Shown piece after piece: positions 41,040-60,696 of a DNA stretch of 64,000 nt. Every line of letters starts with the position of its first letter. Within the stretch, counting starts at the first letter, position 1. Origin of the DNA: Saccharomonospora sp. NB11 (GTDB lineage Bacteria; Actinomycetota; Actinomycetes; Mycobacteriales; Pseudonocardiaceae); the NCBI RefSeq assembly GCF_015910535.1, contig NZ_JACBJG010000005.1:186001-250000 (forward strand), read 5' to 3'. Made by a program: the position numbers and the translations under genes. A model generated the notes under the pieces. That model did not search any database. It saw only the letters and a list, made by a program, of their open reading frames with translations, and was not told where the DNA came from.

Positions 41040-41064
41040 GTATAGCCCCGTCCGGGTGGGGTAT
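41040..41064 (+). promoter_or_regulatory. SigB/SigF-like promoter (weak -35) for SRPBCC/epimerase unit
   Basis: GTAT-N15-GGGTAT, 9 nt before the ATG at 41074. The -10 is canonical; the -35 matches only the loose GNNT consensus. Confidence 0.45.
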
Positions 41065-41073
41065 GCCAGCGCC

Positions 41074-41508
41074 ATGACCGATTTCGAGCACACCCGAGTC
41101 ATCGACGCCGACCCCCGCGTCGTCTTCGACGTCGCCTCCAGCATCGCGTCGCTGGACAGTTGGACGCCCGAGGGCGTCGAGGTGGAACCGGAAGGGGACG
41201 GCACCCTGCACGCCTGGGTGGACAGCGGCAGCGAGGTCCGTGACGAGACCGGCTACGTCGACGCCGACCGCGACCGGATGCGCCTGCGGTGGGGCGGCGA
41301 CGACACCGGCTACGAGGGCTGGTTGCAGATCGAACCCCACGGTGGCGCCGGGTCGCGTGCCGCGCTCGCCACCCTGCACGTTGGTTTCGCTGGACCGGCA
41401 CCGGAGACGTTGGGCGGGGAGCGCAGCGCCGACGTCGACAGCCGGATCGAGCAGGCACTCGACCGGTTGGCCTCGCTCGTGCAGGACCGCACCGAGCCGA
41501 CCCCGTGA
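41074..41508 (+). CDS. SRPBCC-family protein
   Basis: 144 residues of START/polyketide-cyclase-like fold: FEHTRVIDADPRVVFDVASSIASLDSWTP is the usual first strand and helix pair, and a long C-terminal helix closes the cavity (RIEQALDRLASLV). Binds an unknown hydrophobic ligand. The last bases overlap a GTG start of the next gene (GTGA), so they are likely co-translated. Confidence 0.75.
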   Translation: MTDFEHTRVIDADPRVVFDVASSIASLDSWTPEGVEVEPEGDGTLHAWVDSGSEVRDETGYVDADRDRMRLRWGGDDTGYEGWLQIEPHGGAGSRAALATLHVGFAGPAPETLGGERSADVDSRIEQALDRLASLVQDRTEPTP

Positions 41509-42569
41509 CCGGTATGCGCGTCGTGGTGACCGGCGCGACCGGCAACCTCGGCACCAGCGTGGTGGAGGCGCTCGGAGCCGTCCCGGAGGTCGACTCGATC
41601 GTCGGTGTCGCCCGGCGCAAGCCCCGCTGGTCGCACCCGACGTTGACGATCGAGCAGCTCGACCTCGGCACCGCCGACGACGCCGAACTCGACTCGGCGT
41701 TCGCCGACGCCGACGCGGTCGTGCACCTCGCGTGGCTCTTCCAGCCCACCCGGGACCCGGCGACCACCTGGCGCGCCAACGTCCTCGGCAGTCTCCGGGT
41801 CTTCGAGGCCGTCGCCCGGTGCGCGGTGCCCGCACTCGTGCACTCGTCGTCGGTCGGGGCCTACTCGCCGGGGCCGAAGGACCACGCGGTCACGGAGGAC
41901 TGGCCCACCCACGGCTGGCCCGGCGCGGCCTATCCGAGGGAGAAGGCGTACCTGGAGCGGGCGCTCGACGCTTTCGAGGCCGAGCACCCGTCGATCCGCG
42001 TGGTGCGGTTGCGACCGGGTTTCGTCTTCCGGCGAGAGACGGCGTCGCAACAACGACGGTTGTTCCTCGGGCCGTTCGTGCCGACGTCCCTGGTGCGCCC
42101 CGGGGTGATCCCGGTCGTGCCGACCACGCCGTCGTTGCGCATGCAGGTGGTGCACTCCGCCGACGCCGGGCGCGCGTTCGCGCTCGCCGCGACCCGAGAC
42201 GTGCGGGGCGCGTTCAACATCGCCGCCGACGAGGTCGTGGACGGTGCCACCGTGGCGCGGTTGCTCGACGCCCGCCCGGTCACCGTGCCGTCCCGCCTGC
42301 TGCGAGCGGTCGTGGCGGCGGCCTGGACCCTGCGCTTGGTGCCCGCCTCACCGGGGCTGCTCGACGCGGTGCTGCGGTTGCCGTTGATGGACACCACGCG
42401 GGCGCGCACGGAACTCGGCTGGACGCCACGGCACACGGCCGACGAGGCACTCACCGAGTTCCTCACCGGGCTGCGCGAGCGAGCCGGTGAGGCCACGCCG
42501 CCGCTCGCCCCGTCGGTCCCCGGTGGCCGACTCGGCGAGCTGGCCACCGGGGTCGGCCGACGTCCCTGA
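41505..42569 (+). CDS. NAD-dependent epimerase/dehydratase, SDR family
   Basis: 354 residues, extended short-chain dehydrogenase. The nucleotide motif is VTGATGNLGTSV, the active-site Ser is in VHSSSVGAYSPG and the Tyr-Lys pair in YPREKAYLE. The substrate is unknown; similar proteins act on sugar nucleotides or steroids. GTG 41505 gives a 4-bp overlap with SRPBCC; ATG 41514 is the alternative. Confidence 0.85.
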   Translation: MTGMRVVVTGATGNLGTSVVEALGAVPEVDSIVGVARRKPRWSHPTLTIEQLDLGTADDAELDSAFADADAVVHLAWLFQPTRDPATTWRANVLGSLRVFEAVARCAVPALVHSSSVGAYSPGPKDHAVTEDWPTHGWPGAAYPREKAYLERALDAFEAEHPSIRVVRLRPGFVFRRETASQQRRLFLGPFVPTSLVRPGVIPVVPTTPSLRMQVVHSADAGRAFALAATRDVRGAFNIAADEVVDGATVARLLDARPVTVPSRLLRAVVAAAWTLRLVPASPGLLDAVLRLPLMDTTRARTELGWTPRHTADEALTEFLTGLRERAGEATPPLAPSVPGGRLGELATGVGRRP

Positions 42570-42594
42570 CGCCGGTCACCTCCCGGGCGGCACG

Positions 42595-43758
42595 TCACTT
42601 CCCGGGCGGCGGGACGGAGCGGGCCTCGCCTCTCCCGGCGACGAGGCTGCGCAGCGCCACGGCTCGGCTCACGTCGGTGGGCGTCACGATCCCGGCGAGG
42701 CGATCACCGTCGAACACCAGCGCGCGGCCGTCCGGCGCCTGCCCCAGCTCGGGCAGCAGGTCGACGAGCGGCGTGTCCGGGGTGACCGTCGGGACCTCGC
42801 GCACCGGACAGGCCACGTCGTGGACACGCGTGGTGCCCCGCTCGGAGAGCGGCACCGAGCGCAGGCGGTTCAGCGTGACGAGGCCCTCCACGTGTCCGCG
42901 CGCGTCGACCACAGGAAACGCCGAGTGTCGCCGCACGAGCACGACGTCGTGGAGGAAGTCGTCGACGGTGAGCGTCGCGTCGGTGGTGTCGGGGTCGGCG
43001 GTCATCACGTCGGCCACCGGCACGTCCTCCAGGGTGCTGCCGAGGCGTGCCTGACGTTCCTCGGCCCCGGCGACGGTGACGACGAACAGGCCGACCAGTA
43101 CCCACCACAGGCCACCGCCGATGCCCACGAACAGCAACTGCCACACGCCCGCCAGGATCAGCAGCACGCCGAAGCCCCGTCCGGCGCGAGCACTCCACAG
43201 CGAGGCCACGTGACGGTCGCCCTTCCATGCCCACAATCCCGCCCGCAGGATTCGGCCCCCGTCCAACGGAGCGGCGGGGATGAGGTTGAACACGGCGAGC
43301 ACCCCGTTGAACAGCGCGAGGTAGAGCGCCACCATCACCATGAGGAACGGCGCGTCCACGGTCACGAGCAGCCAGGCCAGCGCGCCGAAGAGCGCGCCGC
43401 ACAGCACGCTCACCAACGGCCCCGCCGCCGCGACCCGCAGGTCCGCCCCCGGCGTGCGGGCCTCGCCACGAAGGCGGGCGATTCCGCCCAGCAACCACAG
43501 GGTGATGTCGTCGACGTCGATGCCCTGCCGCCGCGCCACGACGGCGTGCGCGAGTTCGTGCGCCAACAGCGACGCCAGGAACAGCAACGCCGCCACCACG
43601 GCCGCCAGCACGTAGACGCCGTCGGGGTAGCCGGGTGCCAGAACCGGCCAGTTCCGGAAGCCGAGTGCCACCACGAGGACGAGCAGGATGCCGAGCACGC
43701 TCCAGTGCGCGCCGACGCGGATACCGGCGATCGTGCCGAGCCGCAACGTCGAGGACAT
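42595..43758 (-). CDS. rip3: Site-2 metalloprotease with CBS pair (Rip3-like)
   Basis: 387 residues. Intramembrane zinc protease of M50 family: H67-E-L-A-H71 in a membrane helix, NLIPAAPLDGGRI with the third metal ligand Asp, then two CBS domains (VMTADPDTTDATLTVDDFL; VPTVTPDTPLVDLLPELG) that may sense nucleotides. Similar to M. tuberculosis Rip3 (Rv2625c), which is in a dormancy region. Probable role is cleavage of a membrane regulatory protein. A SigB-like promoter lies upstream. Confidence 0.92.
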   Translation of the reverse strand: MSSTLRLGTIAGIRVGAHWSVLGILLVLVVALGFRNWPVLAPGYPDGVYVLAAVVAALLFLASLLAHELAHAVVARRQGIDVDDITLWLLGGIARLRGEARTPGADLRVAAAGPLVSVLCGALFGALAWLLVTVDAPFLMVMVALYLALFNGVLAVFNLIPAAPLDGGRILRAGLWAWKGDRHVASLWSARAGRGFGVLLILAGVWQLLFVGIGGGLWWVLVGLFVVTVAGAEERQARLGSTLEDVPVADVMTADPDTTDATLTVDDFLHDVVLVRRHSAFPVVDARGHVEGLVTLNRLRSVPLSERGTTRVHDVACPVREVPTVTPDTPLVDLLPELGQAPDGRALVFDGDRLAGIVTPTDVSRAVALRSLVAGRGEARSVPPPGK

Positions 43759-43784
43759 GTGACACCTCCACCAGCCTCCGAATG

Positions 43785-43809
43785 GGTTAACGCCGTCCCC
43801 GGTGGGCTA
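43785..43809 (+). promoter_or_regulatory. SigB/SigF-like promoter for the Rho_N-like gene
   Basis: GGTT-N15-GGGCTA, about 36 nt before ATG 43845. The -10 overlaps that of the minus-strand promoter for rip3. Confidence 0.5.
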
Positions 43810-43832
43810 CCCGCATGCCGTAGCCGGCAGAC
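43807..43832 (-). promoter_or_regulatory. SigB/SigF-like promoter for rip3
   Basis: On the minus strand GTCT-N16-GGGTAG, about 48 nt before the rip3 ATG. GGGTAG is the same -10 as upstream of the DUF2795 gene and four others. Confidence 0.5.
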
Positions 43833-43844
43833 CGGAGGAAGACC

Positions 43845-44051
43845 ATGCCGCAGCGGAACGACCTGCACGACCGAACCTGGGGTGAGCTGACCGAGACGGC
43901 CCACGAGGAGGGCATCCCGTTCGTCGCGCACATGAGCCAGGGCGAGCTGATCGAGGCGATCGAGCAGCAACGCGAGGCGAACTCTCACCAGCCACCGTCG
44001 CCGCGGCAGCCGAGCGACGAGGTGGACACCGACGGTGAGCCGACGAGGTGA
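43845..44051 (+). CDS. Small Rho_N-like acidic protein
   Basis: 68 residues. The middle (WGELTETAHEEGIPFVAHMSQGELIEAIEQQ) resembles the N-terminal Rho/SAP-like helix-extended-loop-helix fold that binds nucleic acid or proteins; the tail is disordered (PPSPRQPSDEVDTDGEP). Such small proteins are often stress induced in actinobacteria. GGAGGAAG lies a few nt before the ATG. The function is unknown. Confidence 0.7.
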   Translation: MPQRNDLHDRTWGELTETAHEEGIPFVAHMSQGELIEAIEQQREANSHQPPSPRQPSDEVDTDGEPTR

Positions 44052-44114: not shown

Positions 44115-44507
44115 TCAGTCGCTGACCATGAGGTCACTGCTGGCGGACTGCGCCGCCTGGATCTCCCGGCTCAGGGCCGTCCCCATCCGGTGCGCCCGAG
44201 CCAGCGCGGACGCGACCTCGAAGATCGACTCGGCGACCTCCCCGTACGCACGCGGGTCCTGTCCCCCGACACGACCGCACCAGAGGCACTGTTCGAGCCA
44301 GGTGGCCATCTCGGGAAGACAGCGGGAGAGGTTGTCGACGAGCAGCTTCAACGAGCCCAGCACCTCGTGCATCTCCCCGGGACTCGCGAGGATGTCGCCG
44401 TCGACGGGGTTCGAGGTACGCAGCGACAATGCCCTGACCGCGTCCTCCGCGCGGGCGGCGAGCCGTGCGGGCGAGTTCTCCGCTTCGCCACTGCCGGATA
44501 GCTCCAT
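44115..44507 (-). CDS. Conserved-looking helical protein, unknown
   Basis: 130 residues, predicted helical, with a CLWCGR motif (LPEMATWLEQCLWCGRVGGQDP) and a final helix EVASALARAHRMGTALSREIQAAQ. AAGG lies 5 nt upstream of the ATG. No family recognised. A SigB-like promoter (44544-44569) ends 37 nt upstream and overlaps nothing but the spacer, so it is probably independently transcribed. Confidence 0.7.
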   Translation of the reverse strand: MELSGSGEAENSPARLAARAEDAVRALSLRTSNPVDGDILASPGEMHEVLGSLKLLVDNLSRCLPEMATWLEQCLWCGRVGGQDPRAYGEVAESIFEVASALARAHRMGTALSREIQAAQSASSDLMVSD

Positions 44508-44543: not shown

Positions 44544-44569
44544 CTACCCGTGGGCCGACCCGGACAAAC
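44544..44569 (-). promoter_or_regulatory. SigB/SigF-like promoter for the 130-residue protein
   Basis: Minus strand GTTT-N16-GGGTAG, perfect for both boxes. It lies in the short spacer between the DUF2795 gene stop and this gene. Confidence 0.7.
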
Positions 44570-44572: not shown

Positions 44573-44887
44573 TCAACTGCCCCGGTTCTCGCCGAGTTCC
44601 TCGACGATCGGATGGGGCTCGACCTCCGTGGCCTGCTCGGACAGGCCGGGCTTGGTGTGCTGACGCCGACGCTGCACGCGATCACGGATGTCCGCCGGCG
44701 TCACGAACGACACGGCTCGCTCGACCTCGCCCAGTCCGGCGTACGTCTCGTCGGGCATCCCCTTCAGTTCCCGCAGGGTGTCGGCGTCGGCCCCGGCCCG
44801 CTCCGCGCAGCGCACCAGCTCCGCGCGGTCGGCGGGGAAGTCAGCCTCGGCGAGCGCCGCGTGCAGGCGTCGTGTGGTCGTTGGCAT
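44573..44887 (-). CDS. DUF2795 protein
   Basis: 104 residues. The core FPADRAELVRCAERAGADADTLRELKGMPDETYAGLGEVERAV fits the DUF2795 family (the latter half of which resembles a small helical bundle acting on a partner protein). Common in actinobacteria, no function known. GGAGG lies 7 nt before ATG; a SigB-like promoter sits immediately upstream. Confidence 0.82.
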   Translation of the reverse strand: MPTTTRRLHAALAEADFPADRAELVRCAERAGADADTLRELKGMPDETYAGLGEVERAVSFVTPADIRDRVQRRRQHTKPGLSEQATEVEPHPIVEELGENRGS

Positions 44888-44908: not shown

Positions 44909-44934
44909 CTACCCCCGGGCCGGGGAGGTGAAAC
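44909..44934 (-). promoter_or_regulatory. SigB/SigF-like promoter for DUF2795 gene
   Basis: Minus strand GTTT-N16-GGGTAG, identical boxes and spacing to the promoter at 44544-44569, about 22 nt before the ATG. Confidence 0.75.
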
Positions 44935-48034: not shown

Positions 48035-48060
48035 GTGTACCGCGAGCGCACCTCGGGTAG
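48035..48060 (+). promoter_or_regulatory. SigB/SigF-like promoter for the iron-redox enzyme gene
   Basis: GTGT-N16-GGGTAG, 9 nt before GTG 48070. With a transcript start about 7-10 nt after the -10 this would be leaderless. The -35 fits GNNT only. Confidence 0.5.
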
Positions 48061-48069: not shown

Positions 48070-49119
48070 GTGAGTACGAGTGTGAGAGCCCCCGCCCCGT
48101 CGACCCCCGCCGAGGTGGCACCGCTGCCGCTTCCCCGCGGCCCGGTGTCGGCGGCCGTGGTGTCAGCGCTACGGGACGAACCCGGCCGCACCACGCTTCC
48201 CTCCGACGTCGCACCACTCGACCCCTACGGCGACGATCTCCAGCTCACCCTGCAAGTCTGCTACGAACTGCACTACCGAGGGTTTTCCGACGCCGCACCC
48301 GACTGGGAGTGGGACCCCGAGCTGTTGCGCCTGCGGTCGGAACTGGAGGCCCGATTCCTCACGGCGTTGCGAGCCGACGTGCCCGGTCGGGGGCGCGACA
48401 CCGACGTCGAGGGCACGCTCGACGAACTGCTGGTGGAGCCCGTCCACGGCTCCGGGCCGAGCCACTGGTTGCGCGACGAAGGCACGTGGGAACAGCTACG
48501 GGAGTACTTCGCCCTGCGCTCGATCTACCACCTCAAGGAGGCCGACCCCCACGCGTGGGCGATCCCCCGACTCCGCGGGCAGGCGAAGGCCGCGCTCGTG
48601 GCCGTCGAGTTCGACGAGTACGGCGGAGGTCGCCACGACCGCATGCACTCCCGGCTCTACGCCGATCTGCTCGACGCCGCCGGACTGCGCAGCGACTACC
48701 TCGGCTACCTCGACCAGGCCCCGCCGCAGGCGCTCGCCACCGTGAACCTGATGTCGCTGTTCGGTCTGCATCGGACGTTGCGTGCGGCCCTCGTGGGTCA
48801 CTTCGCGGCAGCCGAGATCAGCACGGCACCCAGCGCGAGCCGGATGGTGCAGGCGATCGACCGGCTCGGCGCGCCCGAGGCTTGCCGTTTCTTCTTCTCC
48901 GAGCACGTCGAGGCCGACGCGGTGCACGAGCAGGTGATGCGTCACGAGGTGATCGGCGACCTGCTGCGCCACGAACCCGACCTCGCCGCCGACGTGGTGT
49001 TCGGCATCCAGGCCACCGAGCTGCTCGAAGCCCACCTCGCCGACCACCTGATGAGCCACTGGCGGCGGGGCCTGCCCACGATCCCGCTGGAGACCGAGGT
49101 CACCGATCCTGCGCGCTGA
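48070..49119 (+). CDS. Iron-containing redox enzyme, heme-oxygenase-like fold
   Basis: 349 residues. Helical proteins of this class bind a di-iron site through conserved His/Glu/Asp residues, here probably in YHLKEADPHAW, VEFDEYGGGRHDRMH and FFFSEHVEADAVHEQVMRHEV. The chemistry is unknown in this group. It converges on the CDGSH gene (18 nt between stops); heme-oxygenase-like enzyme with CDGSH and HemK2-like neighbours is an arrangement I recall from other actinobacteria. Confidence 0.83.
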   Translation: MSTSVRAPAPSTPAEVAPLPLPRGPVSAAVVSALRDEPGRTTLPSDVAPLDPYGDDLQLTLQVCYELHYRGFSDAAPDWEWDPELLRLRSELEARFLTALRADVPGRGRDTDVEGTLDELLVEPVHGSGPSHWLRDEGTWEQLREYFALRSIYHLKEADPHAWAIPRLRGQAKAALVAVEFDEYGGGRHDRMHSRLYADLLDAAGLRSDYLGYLDQAPPQALATVNLMSLFGLHRTLRAALVGHFAAAEISTAPSASRMVQAIDRLGAPEACRFFFSEHVEADAVHEQVMRHEVIGDLLRHEPDLAADVVFGIQATELLEAHLADHLMSHWRRGLPTIPLETEVTDPAR

Positions 49120-49395: not shown

Positions 49396-50035
49396 GGATC
49401 ACCACCAACTCCTCCTCGCGCTGGCCGTCGGCGATCAGGCCGCGCTGTTCGAGATACCGTGCCCGTCCTCGCAGCACCGGACCGAACGGCACCGGCTGGC
49501 GCGCCACGACCGACGTCTTCAGCCCGGCCTCCGCCAACGCCGACACCGTCGCCTCGACCCCGGACAACGACGACTGCACGAGCAGGAAGCACCCACCCTC
49601 GCACAGCAGAGTGGGGACGACGGCACACAGCGGATCGATCACCGAGCGACCGTCGTCGCCCGCGTCCCACCGACGTGAGCGCTTCGGCGACTCCGACGAC
49701 CACGGCACGTACGGCGGGTTGGCGAGCACCAAGTCGAACGGCCCGGGCGGTGGCGCGGTGACCACGTCCGTCCGGCACACCCGCACGGGCAGCCTCCGCA
49801 CCCGCGCGTTGAGCCACGCGGCGGCGAGCGCCCGGCGCGACACGTCCACGGCGAGGACCTCGGCCGCCCCGGCGCGCGCCGCCGTGAGAGCCAGTGCACC
49901 CGTGCCGGTGCCGACGTCGAGCACCCGCGCGTCCTCCGGCAGGGTCACCCCGCGGAACGCCTCCGTCAGCAGCTCGGTGTCGTCCTGAGGCCGATACACC
50001 CCGGGAGGTCGCAGCAACAGCATTCGTCTACTCAT
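49367..50035 (-). CDS. HemK2/MTQ2-type N5-glutamine methyltransferase
   Basis: 222 residues. SAM-binding VLDVGTGTGALALTAA and the catalytic NPPY motif (LVLANPPYVPW) put it in the HemK2/MTQ2 group of glutamine methyltransferases that modify a release factor or other GGQ-type protein. Start ATG 50035 overlaps the DUF4235 stop; its own 3' end overlaps the CDGSH gene, so all five minus-strand genes from 50970 to 49138 look like one operon. Confidence 0.85.
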   Translation of the reverse strand: MSRRMLLLRPPGVYRPQDDTELLTEAFRGVTLPEDARVLDVGTGTGALALTAARAGAAEVLAVDVSRRALAAAWLNARVRRLPVRVCRTDVVTAPPPGPFDLVLANPPYVPWSSESPKRSRRWDAGDDGRSVIDPLCAVVPTLLCEGGCFLLVQSSLSGVEATVSALAEAGLKTSVVARQPVPFGPVLRGRARYLEQRGLIADGQREEELVVIRADRTERTA

Positions 50036-50291
50036 TCCCCGGCCAGGCACCGGTCGCCTTCTCGTAACCCGCGGCACCGGCCCGGTCGACCGCCGCCCTC
50101 ACCGCGCCCGCGATCGCCCCCTGCGCGGCGGCGGCAGCGACGACCTGCCATGCGGTGAATCGTCGGTCGGTGGGTTTCGGGGCCTTCGAATCGCCCGTCA
50201 CCCGCTTCCACACCTGCCTGAACATCGCGCTGGACAGCAGTGCTCCCCCGAAGCTCACGATCAGGCTGAGCGGCCGGTAGAGCGCCTTCAT
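50028..50291 (-). CDS. DUF4235 membrane protein
   Basis: 87 residues. MKALYRPLSLIVSFGGALLSSAMFRQVWKRVTG is the family start; a second helix (WQVVAAAAAQGAIAGAVRAAV) follows. Small inner-membrane protein with unknown role, often next to DUF3618 and a holin-like gene. Overlaps DUF3618 by 4 bp upstream and the methyltransferase start by 8 bp downstream. Confidence 0.85.
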   Translation of the reverse strand: MKALYRPLSLIVSFGGALLSSAMFRQVWKRVTGDSKAPKPTDRRFTAWQVVAAAAAQGAIAGAVRAAVDRAGAAGYEKATGAWPGNE

Positions 50292-50560
50292 CGCTTGATC
50301 CTCCAGGTGAGCAGCCCCCCGAAGGCCAGTGCGAGCACGGAGCCGCAGGCCGCGACGAGCACGGGATTCGCGCGCATCGTGTCGAGCACGACCCGGGACC
50401 GATCCTGGAACTGCTCCTTGGCCCGTTCACCCACGTTCAACCGCTGCATGAGTTCCCTGGCCGTCTCGCGCAGCTCCTGGCGGGTCAGCTCGATGTCGGT
50501 GCGGGCCTGCTCCACCGTCTGCGGGAACTCGTCGGATTCGCTCGGTGTCGAGGCACTCAT
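50288..50560 (-). CDS. DUF3618 protein
   Basis: 90 residues. A cytosolic helix (VEQARTDIELTRQELRETARELMQRLNV, amphipathic) is followed by one membrane helix (PVLVAACGSVLALAFGGLLTW). Known family; unknown function. Middle gene of a three-gene membrane set with ATGA overlaps on both sides. Confidence 0.87.
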   Translation of the reverse strand: MSASTPSESDEFPQTVEQARTDIELTRQELRETARELMQRLNVGERAKEQFQDRSRVVLDTMRANPVLVAACGSVLALAFGGLLTWRIKR

Positions 50561-51158: not shown

Positions 51159-51602
51159 ATGGGAAGACACGAATTGGTGGACTGGTTCGGCCCGAGGTGC
51201 CACGGGCCGATGGAGCTGCGGGTCCCGGCCGACCCGCGGCACCTGTCCGCGATCCGACTGCTGGCTCAGGCAGTGGCGCAACGCGAGGGGTTCGGGCCCG
51301 ACGAGGTCACCGACATCGTCCTCGCCGTCGACGAGGCGTGCGCGAGCCTGATCCGCGCCTCCGTCCCCGGCGCGCTGCTCACCTGCCGGCTGTCGGTCAC
51401 GTTCGGGACGCTGCGCGCAGAGGTGTTCGCCACGACCGTCTCCGGCGGCGTACCGAGTTCACAGTCCCTCGGGTGGCAGGTGCTGGGCACGGTCACCGAC
51501 TCCGTGTCGGCGTGGCGGTACGAGAACGACCCGCACCGGGACACCGACCGCGTCGTGCACATCGACTTCGCGAAGCAGGGGGCGGGACGCATGGCTCGCT
51601 AG
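51159..51602 (+). CDS. SpoIIAB/RsbW-like ATP-binding protein
   Basis: 147 residues of GHKL ATPase fold: MELRVPADPRHLSAIRLLAQAVAQREGF then DEVTDIVLAVDEACASLIRAS (N-box), where Asn of the usual EAxxNAI is replaced by Ser. Such proteins are anti-sigma factors or stress kinases controlling SigB/SigF; here it lies among SigB-like promoters. The altered N-box may reduce ATP binding (inference). Confidence 0.72.
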   Translation: MGRHELVDWFGPRCHGPMELRVPADPRHLSAIRLLAQAVAQREGFGPDEVTDIVLAVDEACASLIRASVPGALLTCRLSVTFGTLRAEVFATTVSGGVPSSQSLGWQVLGTVTDSVSAWRYENDPHRDTDRVVHIDFAKQGAGRMAR

Positions 51603-52147: not shown

Positions 52148-52173
52148 GTTTAACACGCTGAACCGGCGGGCAA
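52148..52173 (+). promoter_or_regulatory. SigB/SigF-like promoter for the GT operon
   Basis: GTTT-N16-GGGCAA, 10 nt before ATG 52184. It falls inside a partial inverted repeat (CGGTT ... AACCG). Confidence 0.65.
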
Positions 52174-52183: not shown

Positions 52184-53128
52184 ATGGAACTGCTCGTGTG
52201 GCACGTCCACGGCTCGTGGACAACCGCGTTCGTCCAAGGGAAGCACACGTATCTGCTGCCTACTGTGGACGATCGCGGTCCGTGGGGCAGGGGCCGATGC
52301 GGACGACCTTGGCCGGAGTCGGCGATCGAGGTCACCCCCGACGAGCTGCGCGAGCGGACCGTGGACGCCGTCGTCCTCCAGCGCCCCGAGGAGATCGCGC
52401 TGACCCGGCGCTGGCTCGGCCACGAACCCGGGATCGACGTGCCCGCCGTCTACGTCGAGCACAACACGCCCCGCGAACACGCCGCGACCAGCCGACACCC
52501 GCTGGCCGCGCGACGCGACATCCCCCTCGTGCACGTCACGCACTACAACGAGCTGATGTGGGACAACGGCGTCGCCCCCACCGTGGTGATCGACCACGGC
52601 ATCGTCGACCCGGGCCACCGCTACACCGGTGAACTCGCCCGTGCGGCCGTGCTCATCAACGAACCCGTCCGCCGCGGGCGGGTGGTGGGCACCGACCTGT
52701 TGCCCGCGATCGCGAAGGCCGCCCCGGTCGACCTGTACGGGATCGGCGTCACCGACGTCGCCGTCGCCGGCGTGACCCCCGTCGGCGACCTGCCCAGCGA
52801 CGAGCTGCACGACGCGATGGCGGCCCGGCGCGTCTACGTGCACACCGCACGGTGGACGTCGCTCGGCCTGTCGCTGTTGGAGGCGATGCACCTCGGGATG
52901 CCCGTGGTCGCCGTGGCCTCCACCGAGGCCGCCACGGCCGTCCCCGCCGAGGCGGGTCTGGTGTCCACCGACGTCGACGACCTCGCCTCCGCGGTCTCGA
53001 CCCTCTGCTCCGACGCCGAACTGGCCACGCGCATGGGCAAGTCGGCCCGCGAGTACGCCCTCGCGCACTTCGGTCTTCCCGCGTTCCTGTCCCGCTGGGA
53101 CGCGTTGCTCGACTCGCTCACACCGTGA
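52184..53128 (+). CDS. Glycosyltransferase, GT4-like
   Basis: 314 residues. The C-terminal donor-binding half shows VYVHTARWTSLGLSLLEAMHLGMPVVAVAS, equivalent to the GT4 nucleotide-sugar loop (a Glu after Leu-Leu at the catalytic end). The N-terminal half is shorter than normal, with HNTPREHAA. Likely transfers a sugar from an NDP-sugar in glycan synthesis. It leads an operon with the next gene (14-nt gap). Confidence 0.82.
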   Translation: MELLVWHVHGSWTTAFVQGKHTYLLPTVDDRGPWGRGRCGRPWPESAIEVTPDELRERTVDAVVLQRPEEIALTRRWLGHEPGIDVPAVYVEHNTPREHAATSRHPLAARRDIPLVHVTHYNELMWDNGVAPTVVIDHGIVDPGHRYTGELARAAVLINEPVRRGRVVGTDLLPAIAKAAPVDLYGIGVTDVAVAGVTPVGDLPSDELHDAMAARRVYVHTARWTSLGLSLLEAMHLGMPVVAVASTEAATAVPAEAGLVSTDVDDLASAVSTLCSDAELATRMGKSAREYALAHFGLPAFLSRWDALLDSLTP

Positions 53129-53142
53129 CAAGCGGAGGCACG

Positions 53143-54354
53143 ATGAAGATCTCGATGGTGTCCGAGCACGCGAGCCCGCTGGCGGCCCTGGGCGAGGTCG
53201 ACGCGGGCGGTCAGAACGTCCACGTCGCCGAGCTGTCCGCAGGGCTCGTCCGAGCCGGGCACGAGGTGACGGTCTACACCCGACGAGACGACGAGGACCT
53301 CCCCGACGAGGTCACCACCCCCGCCGGGTACCGCGTCGTCCACGTACCCGCCGGTCCCGCCCGGTACCTGCCGAAGGACGAGCTGCTGCCCCACATGGGC
53401 GAGTTCACACGGTTCCTGTCGTCGCGGTGGGAGGTCGACCGCCCGGACATCGTCCACGCCCATTTCTGGATGTCGGGTCTGGCGGCGTTGATGGCCGCCC
53501 GCCCGCTGTCCGTCCCGGTGGTGCAGACGTTCCACGCGCTCGGTGTGGTCAAGCGCAGGCATCAGGGCGCCCACGACACCAGCCCCGCCGAGCGGATCGG
53601 CCTCGAACGACTCATCGGCAAGCACGCGGCGCGGGTCGCGACGACCTGTTCGGACGAGGTGTTCGAGCTGGTCCGCCTCGGGTTGCCACGCTCACGCATG
53701 TCGATCGTGCCGTGCGGCGTGGATCTGGAGCGGTTCTCCCCGTCGGGCCCGGCCGAGCAGCGACGCAACCGCTACCGGCTCGTGTCCGTGGGCAGACTGG
53801 TGCCGCGCAAGGGATTCGACGTCGCCATCGCAGCTCTGCGGTCGCTGCCGGAGACCGAACTGATCATCGCGGGCGGTCCGCAGGAGGGCAGGTTGACCGA
53901 GGACGCGGAGGCCACTCGACTGCTGCGCCTGGCCCGGCAGCTCGGGGTCGCCGACCGCGTGCACCTGCGCGGTCGGGTCGCCCGCGCCGACGTCCCCGCG
54001 CTGTTGCGGTCCGCCGACGTGGTCGTGTGCACCCCCTGGTACGAACCGTTCGGCATCGTGCCGCTGGAGGCCATGGCGTGCGGCGTACCGGTGGTGGCCT
54101 CGGCCGTGGGCGGACTCACCGACACCGTCGTCGACGGGGTCACCGGGCTGCACGTGCCACCGAAGCGCCCCGACGCGCTGGCCGCCGCCGTGCGCCGACT
54201 GCTGTCCGACGCCGCGCTGCGCGACGCGTACGGCATCGCGGGCGCCGACCGGGCTCGGTGCCGCTACTCGTGGGACCGCATCGCCTCCGACACGATGCGC
54301 GTCTACGAGCGGGTGGTCCCCGCGGCGGCGCTCAGCGGCGAGGAGACGGGCTGA
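53143..54354 (+). CDS. Glycosyltransferase family 4
   Basis: 403 residues. N-terminal GALGEVDAGGQNVHVAELSAGLVRAGHEVTVYTRR-like acceptor domain (here SPLAALGEVDAGGQ), C-terminal donor domain with WYEPFGIVPLEAMACGVPVV (the E-x7-E retaining motif). Resembles MshA- or sucrose-synthase-type GT4. GGAGG lies 5 nt before the ATG. Probably adds a sugar to the glycan built by the neighbouring cluster; substrate unknown. Confidence 0.87.
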   Translation: MKISMVSEHASPLAALGEVDAGGQNVHVAELSAGLVRAGHEVTVYTRRDDEDLPDEVTTPAGYRVVHVPAGPARYLPKDELLPHMGEFTRFLSSRWEVDRPDIVHAHFWMSGLAALMAARPLSVPVVQTFHALGVVKRRHQGAHDTSPAERIGLERLIGKHAARVATTCSDEVFELVRLGLPRSRMSIVPCGVDLERFSPSGPAEQRRNRYRLVSVGRLVPRKGFDVAIAALRSLPETELIIAGGPQEGRLTEDAEATRLLRLARQLGVADRVHLRGRVARADVPALLRSADVVVCTPWYEPFGIVPLEAMACGVPVVASAVGGLTDTVVDGVTGLHVPPKRPDALAAAVRRLLSDAALRDAYGIAGADRARCRYSWDRIASDTMRVYERVVPAAALSGEETG

Positions 54355-54396: not shown

Positions 54397-56931
54397 TCAG
54401 GTGCCCACCGGCGCGGTCACGTCGAAGGTCAGAGCACCGTCGCGCACCGTCACCCTCACGGTGGTGCCCGACCGAAGATCGCCCTTCAACAGCATGCGCG
54501 AGAGCACGTTGTCCACCTCGCGCTGGATGGTGCGGCGCAACGGCCGGGCCCCGAACTCCGGCTGGTAACCGGCCTCCGACAACCACCGCACCGCCTCCGG
54601 AGCGAACTCGACGTCCACTCCCTGCGCATGGGCCTTGCGACGGGTCTCCTCCAGCAGCAGCGTGGTGATCTGCTGGAGCTGCTCGGCCGAGAGCTTGCGG
54701 AACACGATGATCTCGTCGATCCGGTTGAGGAACTCGGGGCGGAAGTTGTCCCGCAACCGCCGCATCAACCGTTCGCGCAACGGCTCGTCGACCTGCTCCT
54801 CGTCCTTCGGCGAGAACCCGATCGCGCCCTGCGTCCCGCTCAGCACCAGCTCCGACCCGATGTTGCTCGTCATGATCAGGACGGTGTTGGTGAAGTTGAC
54901 CGTGCGACCCCGGCCGTCGGTGAGCCGACCGTCCTCCAGCACCTGCAACAGCAGGTTGAACACGTCGTGGTGGGCCTTCTCGATCTCGTCGAGCAACACC
55001 ACCGAGTAGGGCCGCCTCCGCACGGCCTCGGTGAGCTGTCCGGCGTCCTCGTAGCCGACGTACCCGGGTGGGGCGCCGATGAGCCTGCTGACCGTGTGCC
55101 GCTCGCCGTACTCCGACATGTCGAGCCGGATCATGCTGTCCTCGCTGCCGAAAAGCGCCTCGGCGAGCGCGCGGGCCAGCTCGGTCTTGCCCACCCCGGT
55201 CGGCCCGAGGAACAGGAAGCTCCCCGACGGCCGGTTCGGCTCGGACAGGCCCGCCCTCGCCCGGCGCACCGCCTCGGCGACGGCCTCCACCGCCTCGTCC
55301 TGGCCGACGACCCGGCCGTGGAGGTGTTCCTCCAGGTTCAGCAGCCGCTCCCGTTCCTCCTGCGTCAGTTGCGACACCGGGATGCCGGTGCTGCGGGAGA
55401 CGACCTCGGCGATGTCGGTGGCCGTCACGTCGGGGGCCTCGGCGGGCCGGTCCTGCAAGCGTTGCTGCTCGATGCGTCCGCGCAGGTCGTGGATCTCGTC
55501 GCGCAAGGCGGACGCGCGTTCGTAGTGTTCCTCGCTCACCGCCTGGTCGCGGTCCCGGCAGAGCTGTTCCAGCCGCGACTCCATGTCGCGCAACCGTTCC
55601 GGCCACCGCCCCGACCGCATCCGCACCCGCGCGCCGGCCTGATCCATGAGGTCGATGGCCTTGTCCGGCAGGTACCGGTCGGTGATGTAACGGTCGGACA
55701 GCGTCGCGGCGGCGCTGAGCGCCTCGTCGGTGAACCGCACCTGGTGGTGGGCCTCGTACTGGTCGCGCACGCCGTGCAGGATGGCGAGCGTGTCCTCGAC
55801 GTTCGGCTCGGGCACCAGGATGGGCTGGAACCGCCGCTCGAACGCCGGGTCGTTCTCGATGTTCTGCCGGTACTCGTCGAGCGTCGTCGCGCCGACGATG
55901 TGCAGCTCGCCGCGGGCGAGAGCGGGCTTCAACATGTTGCCCGCGCCCATCGACCCCTCCGACGACCCCGCGCCGACCACGGTGTGCAGCTCGTCGATGA
56001 AGACGATCAACTTCCCCTGGTTGCGCCGCAGCTCGTCGAGCAGCTTCGTCATCCGTTCCTCGAAGTCACCGCGATACCGCGTGCCCGCGACCATGGCGGC
56101 GACGTCGAGCATCACCACCCGCCGGTCCACCATCGGCTCGGGCACGGTGCCGTCCACGACACGCTGGGCGAGCCCCTCGACGATCGCCGTCTTGCCGACC
56201 CCCGCCTCACCGATGAGCACCGGATTGTTCTTGGTGCGCCGCGACAACACCTCGATGGTCTGCTCGATCTCGTCGTCGCGCCCCACCACCGGGTCGATCT
56301 CCCCGTTGCGGGCCATGTCGGTGAGGTCCTGCCCGTAGGTGTCGAGCGTGGGCGTGTCACTGGGCTGCTCCTGCGCCTGCGTGGTCTCACGCGCGTGCGT
56401 CGAGCCGGTGGGTCCCGAGATCGCCCGCTGCATGGCCTCCGGGGTCACGCCCGCCTCGGCCAGGATCAGACCGGCCCGCGAATCCGGGTTGGCCACCAGC
56501 GCCAGCAGGATGTGCTCGGGCCCGATGTACGACGAGCGCAGGCCCCGCGAGATCTGGTGCGCGTCGAGCAGGGTCCGCTTGGCGCCGGGCGTCAGCACCG
56601 GAGTGTCGTGCGGTGCCCGCCGGTCGGCCGCCTCCCGCTCGACCCGCTCGGCGAGCGCATCGGGATCGGCACCCGCCCGCTGGAGCAGCTCCCGGCTCCC
56701 CGGAACCCGCGTCGCCGCCCACAGCAGGTGGGTCGAGTCGAGCTCGTTCTGCCCCCACTCCCCGACCTGACGCACCGCCGCGGACACCAGGGCGAGCGCC
56801 TGCTCGCTCATCAGGCGGGTGATCCCCACGGCATGCGGACGCCGTCCCGGCATGGCGTTGCCGAAGAACTGGGCGAGCAACTGGTCGAACGGACTGGGGC
56901 TCGGTTCCCCGAAGAAGCCGGTCATCGACAC
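54397..56931 (-). CDS. ClpC-type AAA+ chaperone
   Basis: 844 residues: N-terminal Clp-N domain ([22 protein letters not shown] ... [15 protein letters not shown]), two AAA modules with Walker A GEAGVGKT and GPTGVGKT, Walker [11 protein letters not shown] and VVLLDEIEK, and a UVR-like middle domain ([27 protein letters not shown]). An IGF loop ([10 protein letters not shown]) sits where ClpC has LGF for docking ClpP, so partner protease docking is likely. It is not ClpB, which lacks that loop. SigB-like promoter 33 nt upstream. It is embedded between glycan genes. Confidence 0.9.
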
Positions 56932-56963: not shown

Positions 56964-56989
56964 CTACCCGGTGTGGCCGGAGGTCAACC
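56964..56989 (-). promoter_or_regulatory. SigB/SigF-like promoter for the ClpC-like gene
   Basis: Minus strand GGTT-N16-GGGTAG, 33 nt before the ATG at 56931, lying just after the stop of the upstream GT2 gene. This supports independent stress induction. Confidence 0.7.
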
Positions 56990-56992: not shown

Positions 56993-57883
56993 TCACCCGA
57001 CGTAGCGCCGGGCGGTCGAGTGCCGCTGCGACTCCTCCAACGAACGCAGGCCCTCCTCCACCGACGGCGGCACCACCCGACGTTCGGCCAGCACCCACGG
57101 CAGTCCCCGCAGCGCCTCCGCCACCGCCGCGACCGTGGCGAGATCGCGGGGCGCGGAGCGCAGCACGTCGACGGTGCGGCGGGCCGCGGACCGCACGGGT
57201 CGGCGCAACCACATCGTCCACAGCGTGTTGCGGATACCGAGTTGCCGACGGCGGCGGGCGTCGCGCGCCTGCGAGGGAGCGTGGTGGATCACGATGTCGG
57301 GGTCCCAGCACATCCACCACCCGTGCGCGGCGAGGTCGAGGGCGAGCAGTTCCTCCTCCCCACCGAGCCACATCCGCGGCGAGAACCCGCCGACCTGCAC
57401 GAACGCCGACACGCGGAACGTCGTCAGCCCGGCCAGCACCCCGAGCAGGGCGGGGCCGGGCAACCAGTCGGGGCCGCGCACCGGCGAGTCCCGCAGTTCG
57501 GGCGTGATCGGGTCCTCCCGCAGGTCCGGCTCCACGAGACAGCGTCCGGTGACCGACGCCAGGCCGGGGTAGGTGTCGAGCAGCTCCACCGCGCGGGTCA
57601 ACGCACCCGGCTGCCAGCGGGTGTCGTCGTCGCAGAACGCGACGTAGGGGGTCTGGATCTGCCGGACGGCGAGGTTGCGGGCCAACGCCCCGAGATTGCG
57701 GTCGCAGCGCAGCAGCGACACGTTCGGGAAGAGGTCGGCGACGGCGTCGGCGGTGCCGTCGGTGGAGGCGTTGTCGGCGACCACGATCGGCGCCGCGTCC
57801 GGCAGCGACGTCATCGCCTCCAGGGTCCGCAGAGCCTCGTCCCGACGATTGTGGGTGATCATGACGACGCTGACCCGACTCAT
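56993..57883 (-). CDS. GT2 glycosyltransferase A
   Basis: 296 residues. GT2 fold: VVMITHNRRDEALRTLEAM, DNASTDGTADAVAD, and the metal-binding DDD in TPYVAFCDDDTRW. Followed by a helical C-terminus (ARRRRQLGIRNTLWTMWLRRPVRS). It is paralogous to the next gene, sharing TPYVAFCDDD, GALTRA and LLG-LA segments. The start overlaps the upstream stop (ATGA). Family members transfer rhamnose or hexose to polysaccharide; donor unknown. Confidence 0.87.
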   Translation of the reverse strand: MSRVSVVMITHNRRDEALRTLEAMTSLPDAAPIVVADNASTDGTADAVADLFPNVSLLRCDRNLGALARNLAVRQIQTPYVAFCDDDTRWQPGALTRAVELLDTYPGLASVTGRCLVEPDLREDPITPELRDSPVRGPDWLPGPALLGVLAGLTTFRVSAFVQVGGFSPRMWLGGEEELLALDLAAHGWWMCWDPDIVIHHAPSQARDARRRRQLGIRNTLWTMWLRRPVRSAARRTVDVLRSAPRDLATVAAVAEALRGLPWVLAERRVVPPSVEEGLRSLEESQRHSTARRYVG

Positions 57884-58710
57884 GCCAGCTCCCGGATCTG
57901 CTGTTCGACGTGGGCGGGCAACGGACGACGGGACCGCAACGCCTTCGGCAGTCTGCGCAGCGCACCCGCCGCCGCGAGCGGATCACGCAACACGATCCCG
58001 GCCGTGCGCGCGCAGTCGGAGAGGGGACGGCGCATCCACGTGATCAGGACGTTGTTGCGTCGTTCGATCCGCCGCCGCCAGCTCGCCGGAGGCCGGACAG
58101 TGGACGGGTGGTGGTGCGCCCGTACCCGGTCGACGTAGCAGAGTTCCCAGCCCCGCGCGGCGAGGTCGTAGGCGAGCAGCTTCTCCTCGGCTCCGAAGTG
58201 CAGCAGTGGATCGAACCCACCCGCGTCGAGGAACGCGCTGCGGCGCACCACGGCCGAGCACGCGAGAAAGCCCAGCACGCGCGGTCCGGGCAGGTCGGGC
58301 GCGGTGCCGAGTGGGCTCGTGGCCATCGCGTCGCACACCGGGTCGCGGCGGCGCTCGGGCCCCACCAGGGTCGTGGCCGCGACGAGCCCGAGCCGTGGGT
58401 AGGCGTCGAACAGCACCTCGGCCCGGGTCAGTGCTCCCTGCTCCCACCACGAGTCGTCGTCGCAGAACGCCACGTATGGGGTGTTCGCCGCCTCCACACC
58501 GAGGTTGCGCGCCGCCATCCCCACGTTCTCCGGCAGTCTGATGACCCGCACGCCCGGGAAGCGATGCCGCACCCGGCTGGTGGTGTCGTCGCGCGAGCCG
58601 TTGTCCACCACGATGACCGGCGGTGTCGGCGACAGCTCACGCAGCCGCGTGAGCGTGCGGGTGAGGTCGTCCACCCGGTTCCGCGTCGCGATCACCACGG
58701 TGGTCCTCAT
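57880..58710 (-). CDS. GT2 glycosyltransferase B
   Basis: 276 residues. Same organisation as glycosyltransferase A: VVIATRNRVDDLTRTLTRL, DNGSRDDT, PYVAFCDDDSWWEQGALTRAE, and a basic helical C-terminus (WRRRIERRNNVLITWMRRPL). Tandem duplication of GT2 genes is likely. Joined to both neighbours by 4-bp overlaps. Confidence 0.87.
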   Translation of the reverse strand: MRTTVVIATRNRVDDLTRTLTRLRELSPTPPVIVVDNGSRDDTTSRVRHRFPGVRVIRLPENVGMAARNLGVEAANTPYVAFCDDDSWWEQGALTRAEVLFDAYPRLGLVAATTLVGPERRRDPVCDAMATSPLGTAPDLPGPRVLGFLACSAVVRRSAFLDAGGFDPLLHFGAEEKLLAYDLAARGWELCYVDRVRAHHHPSTVRPPASWRRRIERRNNVLITWMRRPLSDCARTAGIVLRDPLAAAGALRRLPKALRSRRPLPAHVEQQIRELA

Positions 58711-59564
58711 CGGAGCACCTCCGCCACGAGGTCGTCAGCGAGCGTGCCGCGGCCTCCGGGACGCACGTCCTTGCCGACCGTGAGGCACCAGTCCCACCAG
58801 TGGTCGAGCGTCTCGGTGTCGAGCTCGTCGGCGCCGATCACCGCGGGCCAGCCGAGCGCCTCGGCCTGAGCGGTCACCTTGCCTCCGCCCGCGACCGGGT
58901 CCACCGCGATCGCGGGGACGCCCGCCCGGAGGGCGAGGACGAGCCCGTGCAGCCGCGTGGTCACCACGACGTCGAGGCGGGCGAGCACCGAACAGAACGC
59001 GTCGGGGGTGGCGCAGTGTCGCCAGTCCGTCGTGTCCAGCCGCGTGTCGAGCCCGAGTCGCGCGCACTCCCGCCCGGTGATCCAGTGCAGCAGCGTCTTG
59101 TGCACCTGCTCGTGCCTGCGGCGTCGGCCGTACTCGTACTGCCCCGGTGCGAGCATGATCCCGACCACGGGCACGTCCCGTGCGGCGGCGTCGTAGGAGA
59201 GGTCGGGACGCGGCTCGCCGAGCCCGTCCCGCGCGAGGATGCGGTGGAAACCGGCCGCCGCGGCGTTGCGTGGATCGATCACCGACACCCCGACCGCGAT
59301 ACGACGGCACGACGTGTACCGCCGGTGCAGCCACTCGACCTGTTCCCCGTGCGCGGGCCCGCACACGAACACCACGTGGGAGTACCGGCCCGGCTCCGCG
59401 TCGTCCAGGTGCAGGGCGTCGGGACACAGGACGGGACTCCACGCGGTGTCCACCGCGATGCCCGCCCCGGAGAGTGCGTCGGCGACCCGGAGCATGCTCA
59501 GCACGTCACCCGCGGTCGCCTCCCCTCGGAGGAAACTCGGCCATCCGGTCACCAGCACGCGCAT
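58707..59564 (-). CDS. Polysaccharide pyruvyl transferase-like protein
   Basis: 285 residues, PS_pyruv_trans family. Family segments include VLVTGWPSFLRGEATAGDVLSM, RLDVVVTTRLHGLVLALRAGVPAIAVDPVAGGGKV. The family adds pyruvyl acetals to sugars, or transfers other groups with the same fold. First gene of the minus-strand operon with the two GT2 genes. Its promoter is SigB-like and overlaps the divergent epimerase promoter. Confidence 0.85.
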   Translation of the reverse strand: MRVLVTGWPSFLRGEATAGDVLSMLRVADALSGAGIAVDTAWSPVLCPDALHLDDAEPGRYSHVVFVCGPAHGEQVEWLHRRYTSCRRIAVGVSVIDPRNAAAAGFHRILARDGLGEPRPDLSYDAAARDVPVVGIMLAPGQYEYGRRRRHEQVHKTLLHWITGRECARLGLDTRLDTTDWRHCATPDAFCSVLARLDVVVTTRLHGLVLALRAGVPAIAVDPVAGGGKVTAQAEALGWPAVIGADELDTETLDHWWDWCLTVGKDVRPGGRGTLADDLVAEVLR

Positions 59565-59574
59565 GAGGCGATCT

Positions 59575-59600
59575 GTACCCGTTGCCGGAGCGTTTCACAC
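59575..59600 (-). promoter_or_regulatory. SigB/SigF-like promoter for the pyruvyltransferase operon
   Basis: Minus strand GTGT-N16-GGGTAC, 10 nt before the ATG at 59564. GGGTAC is the Streptomyces SigB -10. Confidence 0.6.
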
Positions 59601-59616
59601 CGGAGCCCGAGGGTAA
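59592..59616 (+). promoter_or_regulatory. SigB/SigF-like promoter for the UXS-like epimerase gene
   Basis: GTTT-N15-GGGTAA, 10 nt before ATG 59627. Shares DNA with the divergent promoter on the other strand. Confidence 0.7.
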
Positions 59617-59626
59617 TCGGATCGAC

Positions 59627-60643
59627 ATGATCTCGGGCGCGGAACACGTGGTGGTGCTGGGCGGTGCGGGCTTCCTCGGAAGCCATGTGTGTGAACGACT
59701 TCTGGCCGACGGACACCGAGTGACCTGTGTGGACAGTCTGCTCACCGGAAGCCTCGACAACGTCGCCGCACTGCTGGAGCAGCCCGGGTTCCGGTTCGTG
59801 GAGCACGACGTCACCCGCCCGTTGGCGGAGTGGCCGGACCTTCCCGCCCCGGACTCGATCCTGCACCTCGCTTCCCCTGCCTCACCCCCGGACTACCTGC
59901 GGCTGCCGCTCCAGACGCTGCGGGCCGGCGCGATCGGCACCGAGAACGCCCTCGACCTCGCCACCCGGCACGGCGCCCGGTTCCTGCTCACCTCCACGAG
60001 CGAGGTGTACGGCGACCCGCTGGAGCACCCGCAGTCGGAGAGCTACTGGGGCAACGTCAACCCGATCGGTCCCCGCAGCGTGTACGACGAGGCGAAACGC
60101 TACGCCGAGGCGCTGACCCTGGCCTACCACCGGGAACATGGCACCGACGTCGCCGTCGCCCGGGTCTTCAACACCTACGGCCCGCGCATGCGGGTCGACG
60201 ACGGACGCATGATCCCCACCTTCGTCAGCCAGGCGCTGACGAACGCTCCCCTCACCGTCGCGGGAGACGGTGGACAGACCCGTTCGGTGTGCTACGTGGA
60301 CGACACCGTGTCGGGACTGCTCGCCCTGTGGCGCAGCGATCTCGTCGGCCCCGTCAACATCGGCAACCCGACCGAGCTGACGGTGCTCGCGCTGGCCGAA
60401 CGCATTCGCGCCGCGACACATTCGACGTCGGAGATCACCTTCGTGCCGGGAGCGGTCGACGATCCCCGTCGCCGCTGCCCCGACATCACGCTGGCGCGCA
60501 CGGCACTCGGGTGGGAGCCACGGACGGACCTGACCGAGGGACTGCGCCGCACCCTCGAATGGTTCACCCGCGTCGTCCCGACCACCCCTTCGACGTCCGC
60601 TCCCGAGCGACGCCGGCTCACCGAGAACGCTCACGGTCAGTAG
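59627..60643 (+). CDS. UDP-glucuronate decarboxylase/epimerase (UXS-like)
   Basis: 338 residues from ATG 59627. SDR fold with [12 protein letters not shown], and the UXS-type motif [30 protein letters not shown], and [11 protein letters not shown] (Tyr-Lys). The SPASPPDY motif marks UDP-xylose synthase-like decarboxylases. It makes an activated sugar (perhaps UDP-xylose) for the cluster. The ATG at 59582 would place the start inside the promoter and is rejected. Confidence 0.87.
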
Positions 60644-60671
60644 CGACGTCCTGGGGCTTTGCCCTCCACTC

Positions 60672-60696
60672 GTTTAGGCGTCGCTTCGGGGGGTAG
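60672..60696 (+). promoter_or_regulatory. SigB/SigF-like promoter for the carbamoyltransferase operon
   Basis: GTTT-N15-GGGTAG, both boxes perfect, about 57 nt before GTG 60754. This is the clearest site in the window. Confidence 0.75.

Follow-up and report, generated by a model that had tools for sequence, protein, structure and literature searches.

A candidate general-stress island of Saccharomonospora sp. NB11 in which SigB/SigF-type promoters precede stress genes and cell-wall glycan genes

The window analysed here is a stretch of 64,000 nucleotides (nt) of Saccharomonospora sp. NB11 (C25:186001-250000; the genome measures 4.30 Mb over 29 contigs), in which a series of similarly built promoter motifs, spread over positions 41040..60696, stands before predicted stress genes and cell-wall glycan genes. 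Genes were called with a codon-usage script and named with Pfam and NCBIfam. The original prediction had placed thirteen SigB/SigF-type sites along these 20 kb; all thirteen were located, and eight of them have GTTT or GGTT as the -35 element, as it had counted. In full, the -35 variants are GTTT (six sites), GGTT (two), GTGT (three), GTCT (one) and GTAT (one), and the -10 variants are GGGTA (ten), GGGCA (two) and GGGCTA (one). Twelve sites combine GNNT or GTTT with GGGTA or GGGCA across a spacer of 14-17 nt, the exception being the GGGCTA site of a RhoN-like gene, which is the weakest of the set. It has been reported that the mycobacterial SigF consensus is GTTT-N14-19-GGGTA (PMC4694148; the papers cited here and below are drawn on in part), to which the island motif is equal. 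The boxes also resemble the promoters of the SigB homologues of Streptomyces coelicolor, where GNNT or GTTT goes with GGGTAT or GGGCAT (PMC8346170).

On the left side of the island, an SRPBCC protein of the Polyketide_cyc2 family (41074..41508, plus strand; PF10604) is preceded by GTAT-N15-GGGTA (41040..41063, plus), which ends 10 nt before the ATG at 41074 and recurs in 5/6 orthologue upstream regions of relatives, a fraction given likewise for the sites below. The next promoter-bearing gene encodes a Rip3-like M50 site-2 protease with CBS domains (42595..43758, minus; PF02163 and PF00571), with its site at 43808..43832 (minus; GTCT-N16-GGGTA; 8/13). The weak site GGTT-N15-GGGCTA (43785..43809, plus) belongs to a 68-residue protein (43845..44051, plus), called RhoN-like in the original prediction, which has no Pfam hit and has orthologues in 6 of 40 relative stretches. 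The rip3 and RhoN-like promoters (43785-43832) are convergent and overlap, and a single near-palindrome, GGGCTACCC, contains both -10 boxes. A conserved 130-residue protein (44115..44507, minus), with no Pfam hit and orthologues in 4 of the 40 stretches, and a DUF2795 protein (44573..44887, minus; PF11387) each have a GTTT-N16-GGGTA site on the minus strand (44545..44569, 4/4, and 44910..44934, 6/6). An iron-containing redox enzyme of the Haem_oxygenas_2 family (48070..49119, plus; PF14518) is preceded by GTGT-N16-GGGTA (48035..48059, plus; 8/9), 10 nt before its GTG at 48070. A holin-X - DUF3618 - DUF4235 operon (50028..50970, minus; PF07332, PF12277 and PF14019) has GTTT-N16-GGGCA at 51035..51059 (minus; 7/7), and an RsbW/SpoIIAB-like HATPase (51159..51602, plus) has GTGT-N15-GGGTA at 51122..51145 (plus; 6/6), 13 nt before its ATG at 51159.

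The glycan genes follow, with one unfoldase gene among them. Two glycosyltransferases (GT1 and GT4; 52184..54354, plus) are preceded by GTTT-N16-GGGCA (52148..52172, plus; 7/13), 11 nt before the ATG of GT1 at 52184. A ClpC-like AAA+ unfoldase (54397..56925, minus) has GGTT-N16-GGGTA at 56965..56989 (minus; 8/8). A probable pyruvyltransferase - GT2 - GT2 operon (56993..59564, minus) has GTGT-N16-GGGTA at 59576..59600 (minus; 7/15), 11 nt before the ATG at 59564. It diverges from an NAD-dependent sugar epimerase/dehydratase (59627..60643, plus), described as UXS-like in the original prediction, with the sub-type left unsettled by NCBIfam; the site of this gene is GTTT-N15-GGGTA (59592..59615, plus; 18/24), 11 nt before the ATG at 59627. 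The last site, GTTT-N15-GGGTA at 60672..60695 (plus; 23/27), precedes the carbamoyltransferase-heptose operon, which starts with a carbamoyltransferase with Carbam_trans N and C domains (60754..62394, plus) and a fusion of GT2 with a HAD domain that is GmhB-like, below cut-off (62391..63869, plus). Past the window end this run continues with a GT9 (Pfam over cut-off), a GmhA-like protein (NCBIfam models below cut-offs), an HldE-like protein (adenylyltransferase domain over cut-off, kinase domain under), an SDR and then a UDP-glucose-dehydrogenase-type gene.

For counting, a strict site was defined as G[TG]TT-N14-17-GGGTA. The window holds five of them, all at or beyond 44.5 kb and each 12-59 nt upstream of a predicted start. 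That positions 1-41 kb are nearly empty, as originally claimed, holds true: there are no strict sites there and a single GNNT-N15/16-GGGTA within 150 nt of a start, near 2600. The concentration had also been called non-random, and it is strong, though not exclusive: the genome has about 73 strict sites, and the island (19.7 kb) holds five against 0.33 expected (P 3e-5), the densest 20 kb of the whole genome. Motif density was compared upstream of other genes as well. GNNT-N15/16-GGGTA is followed by a called start within 150 nt nine times in the island, once in 1-41 kb and twice for the 187 genes of eleven control stretches of 20 kb, which are from the same genome and were hand-picked after the genome-wide lists had been seen, and so are not a random draw. 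These stretches contain no strict site with N15/16 and two with N14, each within a gene and on the strand opposite to it. In 200 first-order Markov simulations of the island, strict sites had a mean of 0.07 and a maximum of 2 (five observed), and GNNT sites a mean of 1.1 and a maximum of 6 (eleven observed). Over the genome, GTTT-N14-17-GGGTA occurs 33 times against once for the backward pattern, and GGTT-N14-17-GGGTA 44 times against 18, so that a sizeable share of the GGTT matches may be due to chance. Chance clustering in a G+C-rich genome would draw on the loosest pattern (GGGTA, GGGCA or GGGCTA), whose 20 occurrences only reach the maximum of the 200 Markov runs (20; mean 7.3) and are not significant alone. 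As this pattern is in no clear excess, it is conservation and not the counts that supports the GGGCA and GGGCTA sites.

To assess conservation, the carbamoyltransferase and rip3 were searched in 80 sampled genomes of the family, 40 relative stretches were read, and orthologues were assigned by reciprocal BLAST. In six genomes (G062, G024, G077, G044, G058 and G020) a single contig carries both genes within a span of about 18-35 kb; in another (G041) they are on different contigs. With a uniform pattern, GNNT-N15/16-GGG[TC]A within 250 nt (upstream regions with less than 60 nt available being dropped), a site was found in 107/143 orthologue upstream regions of the thirteen claimed genes and in 13/98 of thirteen other genes (Fisher P 4e-22); the reversed motif gave 6/143 and 8/98. 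Among matched sites, pairwise identity is 87% at the two free -35 letters, the only box positions that the figure covers, as the other box letters are imposed wholly or partly by the pattern, and it falls to 43% in the spacer, 35% in the 15 nt before and 45% after. The boxes are held while the spacers drift, and twelve of the thirteen sites recur upstream of the orthologue in at least one other genus, the RhoN-like site being the exception by the uniform pattern. Gene-specific variants are kept too: GTGT at the RsbW-like gene in 6/6 relatives, and GTTT...GGGCA at the holin gene in 6/7. The assignment to the SigB/SigF class is borne out by the match to the published consensus and by this recurrence in other genera. 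Chance clustering, hard to hold already for the twelve conserved sites and contradicted by the strict counts, is rejected on both grounds together, though the loosest pattern alone would not reject it, and we give it virtually no credence; the RhoN-like site alone may be due to chance.

Several points weigh against promoter conservation of this extent. At the RhoN-like gene the uniform pattern occurs in 0/5 relatives, with GRTTAA...GGGNTA in 3/5 close relatives, and the sites of the pyruvyltransferase (7/15) and of GT1 (7/13) are conserved only so far. Since the compared genomes are related, the Fisher test overstates independence. Several of the unclaimed genes (e.g., GT4, the two GT2 genes GT2a and GT2b, DUF3618, DUF4235 and epimerase 1) look operon-internal, which makes them an easier control, and DUF4383, another gene of this control, has the pattern in 5/8 relatives. 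No claimed site precedes the window's DUF4383 gene (51659-52087); outside the window, the genome has a further DUF4383 gene (L025), which follows a strict site at a distance of 112 nt.

The holin promoter was followed further, by a scan of named actinobacterial contigs from which the best 80 of 355 loci were taken and one (L167) was dropped for its short upstream region. Of the 79 remaining, 24 have G[TG]TT-type boxes and 19 more have GNNT-type boxes (43/79 together), and the reversed motif occurs in 4/79. Within this set, GTTT...GGGCA is found at all six Mycobacterium/Mycolicibacterium loci (L139, L162, L176, L188, L190 and L194), and no Nonomuraea locus has a motif match. Given this upstream conservation in named actinobacteria, GGGCA looks like a genuine variant of the promoter class, in line with the SigF targets listed for Mycobacterium smegmatis (PMC4694148 Table 1).

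Two aspects of promoter layout recur in relatives. At 59592..59600, a single 9-bp element, GTTTCACAC / GTGTGAAAC, serves as the -35 of both the pyruvyltransferase promoter (minus) and the UXS-like promoter (plus). The sharing is exact in the window and in 5/11 relatives (L049, L050, L053, L054 and L060); in more distant genera (L057, L058, L062, L063 and L065) there are two separate -35 elements, and L070 has no leftward site, two further loci with another arrangement having been skipped. As the two promoters share one -35, it is proposed that a single polymerase should choose between the directions. In addition, 10-13 nt separate the ends of six promoters (SRPBCC, iron-redox, RsbW-like, GT1, pyruvyltransferase and UXS-like) from the likely start codons, and inspection by eye showed no clear Shine-Dalgarno sequence; for all of these but the UXS-like gene, the start used differs from that of the codon-usage caller. 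The distance from the -10 box to the start is likewise short in relatives (10 nt in 5/5 for SRPBCC and in 6/8 for iron-redox, 9-11 nt in 15/18 for UXS-like), with the reservation that taking the first in-frame start after the -10 favours short distances. Leaderless or near-leaderless transcription from the six promoters is likely on this spacing.

The island can be compared with the SigF cluster of M. smegmatis (about MSMEG_1766-1804), where genes with GTTT/GGTT/GTGT-N14-17-GGGTA or GGGCA promoters likewise form a dense run (PMC4694148 Table 1, PMC7693655). In both, an RsbW paralogue with its own SigF-type promoter lies beside genes with a GGGCA promoter (PMC4694148 Table 1, PMC7693655). It has been shown that rsbW3 (MSMEG_1787) and its neighbours MSMEG_1788-1790 (GGTT-N15-GGGCA) drop in the M. 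smegmatis sigF mutant (PMC4694148), and we infer that these neighbours correspond to the holin, DUF3618 and DUF4235 genes. The third RsbW of M. smegmatis, RsbW3, is SigF-dependent, acts as a booster and has an N-terminal extension over RsbW1 (PMC7693655). A booster role may be envisaged for the RsbW-like protein of the island, which shares 39% identity with the RsbW encoded in the sigF operon; such an extension was sought by comparing these two sequences, and the island protein has none. A CBS-domain protein and a STAS anti-anti-sigma-type protein (L037 5964-7029) are encoded immediately to the right of the glycan genes, with a possible partner of the RsbW-like protein among them. Two differences set the island apart from the M. 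smegmatis cluster: it runs into a cell-wall glycan pathway, and it does not contain sigF.

Both SigBFG sigma genes over the family cut-off (C23:34316-34984 and C6:132710-133378) are on other contigs, and factors of this kind were found over the cut-off in 80/80 sampled family genomes. The first of them is the sigF of a baeRF2-rsbW-sigF operon, whose leading gene is preceded at 72 nt by GTTT-N16-GGGTA. Outside the window there are 29 GTTT sites: 18 have a called gene starting no more than 200 nt downstream (one of these sites runs into the end of the preceding gene), and two are intragenic. Of 19 proteins scanned downstream of these sites (one of them 321 nt away), 12 match a Pfam family and seven none; the matches include proteins of stress type (ferritin-like, DJ-1/PfpI, LigD_N, DUF4383 and, just below cut-off, CsbD-like) and a [2Fe-2S] protein. 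A LigD_N-type gene and the gene after it, Ku-like by eye (L018 7202-8853), lie downstream of sigF behind another strict site. On L011 (2565-3924), the gene that comes after the second SigBFG gene, in the same orientation, encodes a [2Fe-2S] protein and has GTTT...GGGTA 47 nt before it. In M. smegmatis, the oxidoreductase genes MSMEG_0684-0686 drop in the sigF mutant (PMC4694148 Table 1).

Dependence of the island promoters on SigF is suggested by these motifs and operons, and the presence of two SigBFG factors counts against it, as SigF itself is not singled out. The sites could be real promoters of this class that are read by the second factor (C6:132710-133378), or by both, in which case the island would answer another signal than SigF. 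Besides the two factors over cut-off, the cross-recognition among the nine SigB homologues of S. coelicolor (PMC8346170) agrees with such a division, as do the -35 variants (GTGT, GGTT and GTTT) that genes keep across genera as if tuned. Opposed to it are the sigF operon's own GTTT...GGGTA site and three genomes with conserved sites (G044, G025 and G055) that show one SigBFG factor only (E 1e-60), so that one factor suffices there. We regard reading by the second factor as possible but the less probable arrangement, and keep SigF as the preferred candidate.

The glycan half is most readily understood by comparison with the cwg (cell wall glycan) genes of S. coelicolor, SCO6179-6190, which form one 12-gene operon with a sigma-E promoter and are, at least partly, sigma-E-dependent (PMC6767563); cwgA is also induced by salt without sigE induction (PMC13011467). 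In a genome of another family (G212, family f20), one locus (L206) contains 11 of the 14 query genes. Ten of these belong to a single run of 12 genes, close to which lies a homologue of the pyruvyltransferase. The run starts with a UXS-like epimerase, followed by the carbamoyltransferase, GT-HAD, GT9, GT1, GT4, GmhA-like, HldE-like and two GT2 genes. In the same genome, the region upstream of the first gene (L102) differs at 2/29 positions from the published cwg sigma-E promoter (PMC6767563 Table 1). From this gene content and promoter near-identity, the glycan half of the island is taken to be of cwg type, with the UXS-like gene as probable cwgA counterpart; the identification of L206 as a cwg locus comes from the promoter match and the gene number, not from the SCO6179-6190 proteins themselves. 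The glycan made would probably contain ADP-heptose, an acidic or pentose sugar, and carbamoyl and pyruvyl decoration. Unlike the single cwg operon of S. coelicolor, the genes here lie on both strands in several operons with separate SigF-type promoters, joined to stress genes. A sigma-E promoter as a general rule of family f20 was considered and rejected: a near match was found at 1/6 loci (L102, one hexamer mismatch), L101 has three mismatches and the rest at least four. With that scan mostly blank, sigma-E control rests on the S. coelicolor papers.

The link between stress and glycan genes made in the original prediction proves to be conserved in relatives, with the glycan half now recognizable as a cwg-type, ADP-heptose-type cluster. 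Stretches of the family without rip3 and DUF2795 keep the carbamoyltransferase and UXS-like sites too (e.g., L069, L071 and L078). Within the same order, a SigF-type site precedes one or more of the three genes GT1, UXS-like and carbamoyltransferase in 7/7 genomes examined: five genomes of one genus (f2 g47) have GTTT...GGGTA at 28-32 nt before GT1 in 5/5 and a GTTT site at the UXS-like gene in 3/5, and L199 and L205 have a site at the carbamoyltransferase. The carbamoyltransferase of that genus speaks against the link, with no site upstream in 5/5. In other families, four f20 and four f18 stretches have no SigF-type site at the tested genes, and two f21 stretches have one at the carbamoyltransferase. 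At class level, 47 other genomes gave a carbamoyltransferase match, of which 29 loci were read (one of them, with a motif match, from the same order) and six more, all same-order, were read separately. Of the 29, 22 have no motif within 300 nt, five have G[TG]TT...GGG[TC]A (reversed 1/29) and two a loose match, which means little as the reversed loose pattern occurs in 8/29. The notion that a cwg-type cluster is always under SigF control is rejected by these 22 loci. In one f21 genus (L110, L115, L116 and L117), GTTT...GGGCA lies 42-43 nt before the carbamoyltransferase at three loci and GGGAA 40 nt before it at the fourth, perhaps an independent capture by a SigB-like factor. Regulation of SigF type appears to be a feature of certain lineages, added to a cluster that is itself more widespread.

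The same distribution could mean that the sites are relics or low-activity matches and that a housekeeping or extracytoplasmic function (ECF) sigma factor drives the glycan genes, as in Streptomyces. The sigma-E dependence, in part, of cwg in S. coelicolor (PMC6767563) and the lack of a motif at 22/28 carbamoyltransferase loci outside the order point that way. Against this, the -35 and -10 letters are held across genera while spacers drift, the UXS-like, carbamoyltransferase and GT1 genes each keep the motif separately, and no sigma-E-type match was found within 300 nt upstream of the window's UXS-like gene (L089; the carbamoyltransferase upstream was not scanned). Relic sites are accordingly judged improbable, and working SigF-type promoters remain our reading of the glycan genes.

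Taken together, the observation behind the original prediction is confirmed, and its interpretation is supported in the main line, the reading sigma factor being deduced. We consider it highly probable from the DNA that the region is a general-stress island, in which thirteen SigB/SigF-class promoters under one partner-switching sigma factor serve stress genes and cwg-type glycan genes. The thirteen promoters would drive about a dozen small operons, switched on together by that factor, most likely the SigF whose baeRF-rsbW-sigF operon lies on another contig. The products would be stress-maintenance proteins (the Rip3-like protease, ClpC-like unfoldase, iron-redox enzyme, DUF2795 protein and holin-X operon), the RsbW paralogue, which may feed back on the sigma factor, and the cwg-type cell-wall glycan pathway. 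Stress induction, the glycan structure, RsbW feedback and exclusion at the shared -35 are all predicted features of this scheme.

A broader proposal, which we hold to be somewhat favoured, is that the cwg-type pathway changed its stress sigma factor between lineages. In Streptomyces it would answer to ECF sigma-E, the envelope-damage sensor; in Pseudonocardiaceae and further families of their order it would be under SigF-type general-stress promoters, as may have come about a second time in a single genus beyond that order. In Saccharomonospora and its near relatives, the pathway would have come into physical linkage with a SigF island that carries an RsbW paralogue and a divergent switch on a shared -35. 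On this view the general stress response would include a heptose glycan coat, and an entire cell-envelope pathway moved between stress circuits would become a testable case, with candidate promoters for each lineage in hand. The open-access paper listings consulted gave no link of SigF or SigB to heptose or cwg genes and no report on SigF in Pseudonocardiaceae, and no cwg gene was seen in the part consulted of the Streptomyces SigB target list (PMC8346170). The promoter kind is already known; what seems new is the conserved wiring of cwg-type glycan genes to such promoters, which departs from the arrangement published for Streptomyces, together with the joined island. Knowledge of the SigF-type regulon, so far mostly mycobacterial, would be extended to Pseudonocardiaceae with promoter variants conserved gene by gene, and with it would come probable leaderless transcripts and a divergent promoter pair on one -35 element.

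Two minor observations may be added. At L027 2278-2898, outside the island, the genome has another GmhA-like SIS gene, 151 nt downstream of a strict site. Finally, positions 47403-47999 of the window encode a 198-residue Asp/Pro/Thr-rich protein with a hydrophobic segment by eye, which has no orthologue in the 40 stretches and belongs to no Pfam family.

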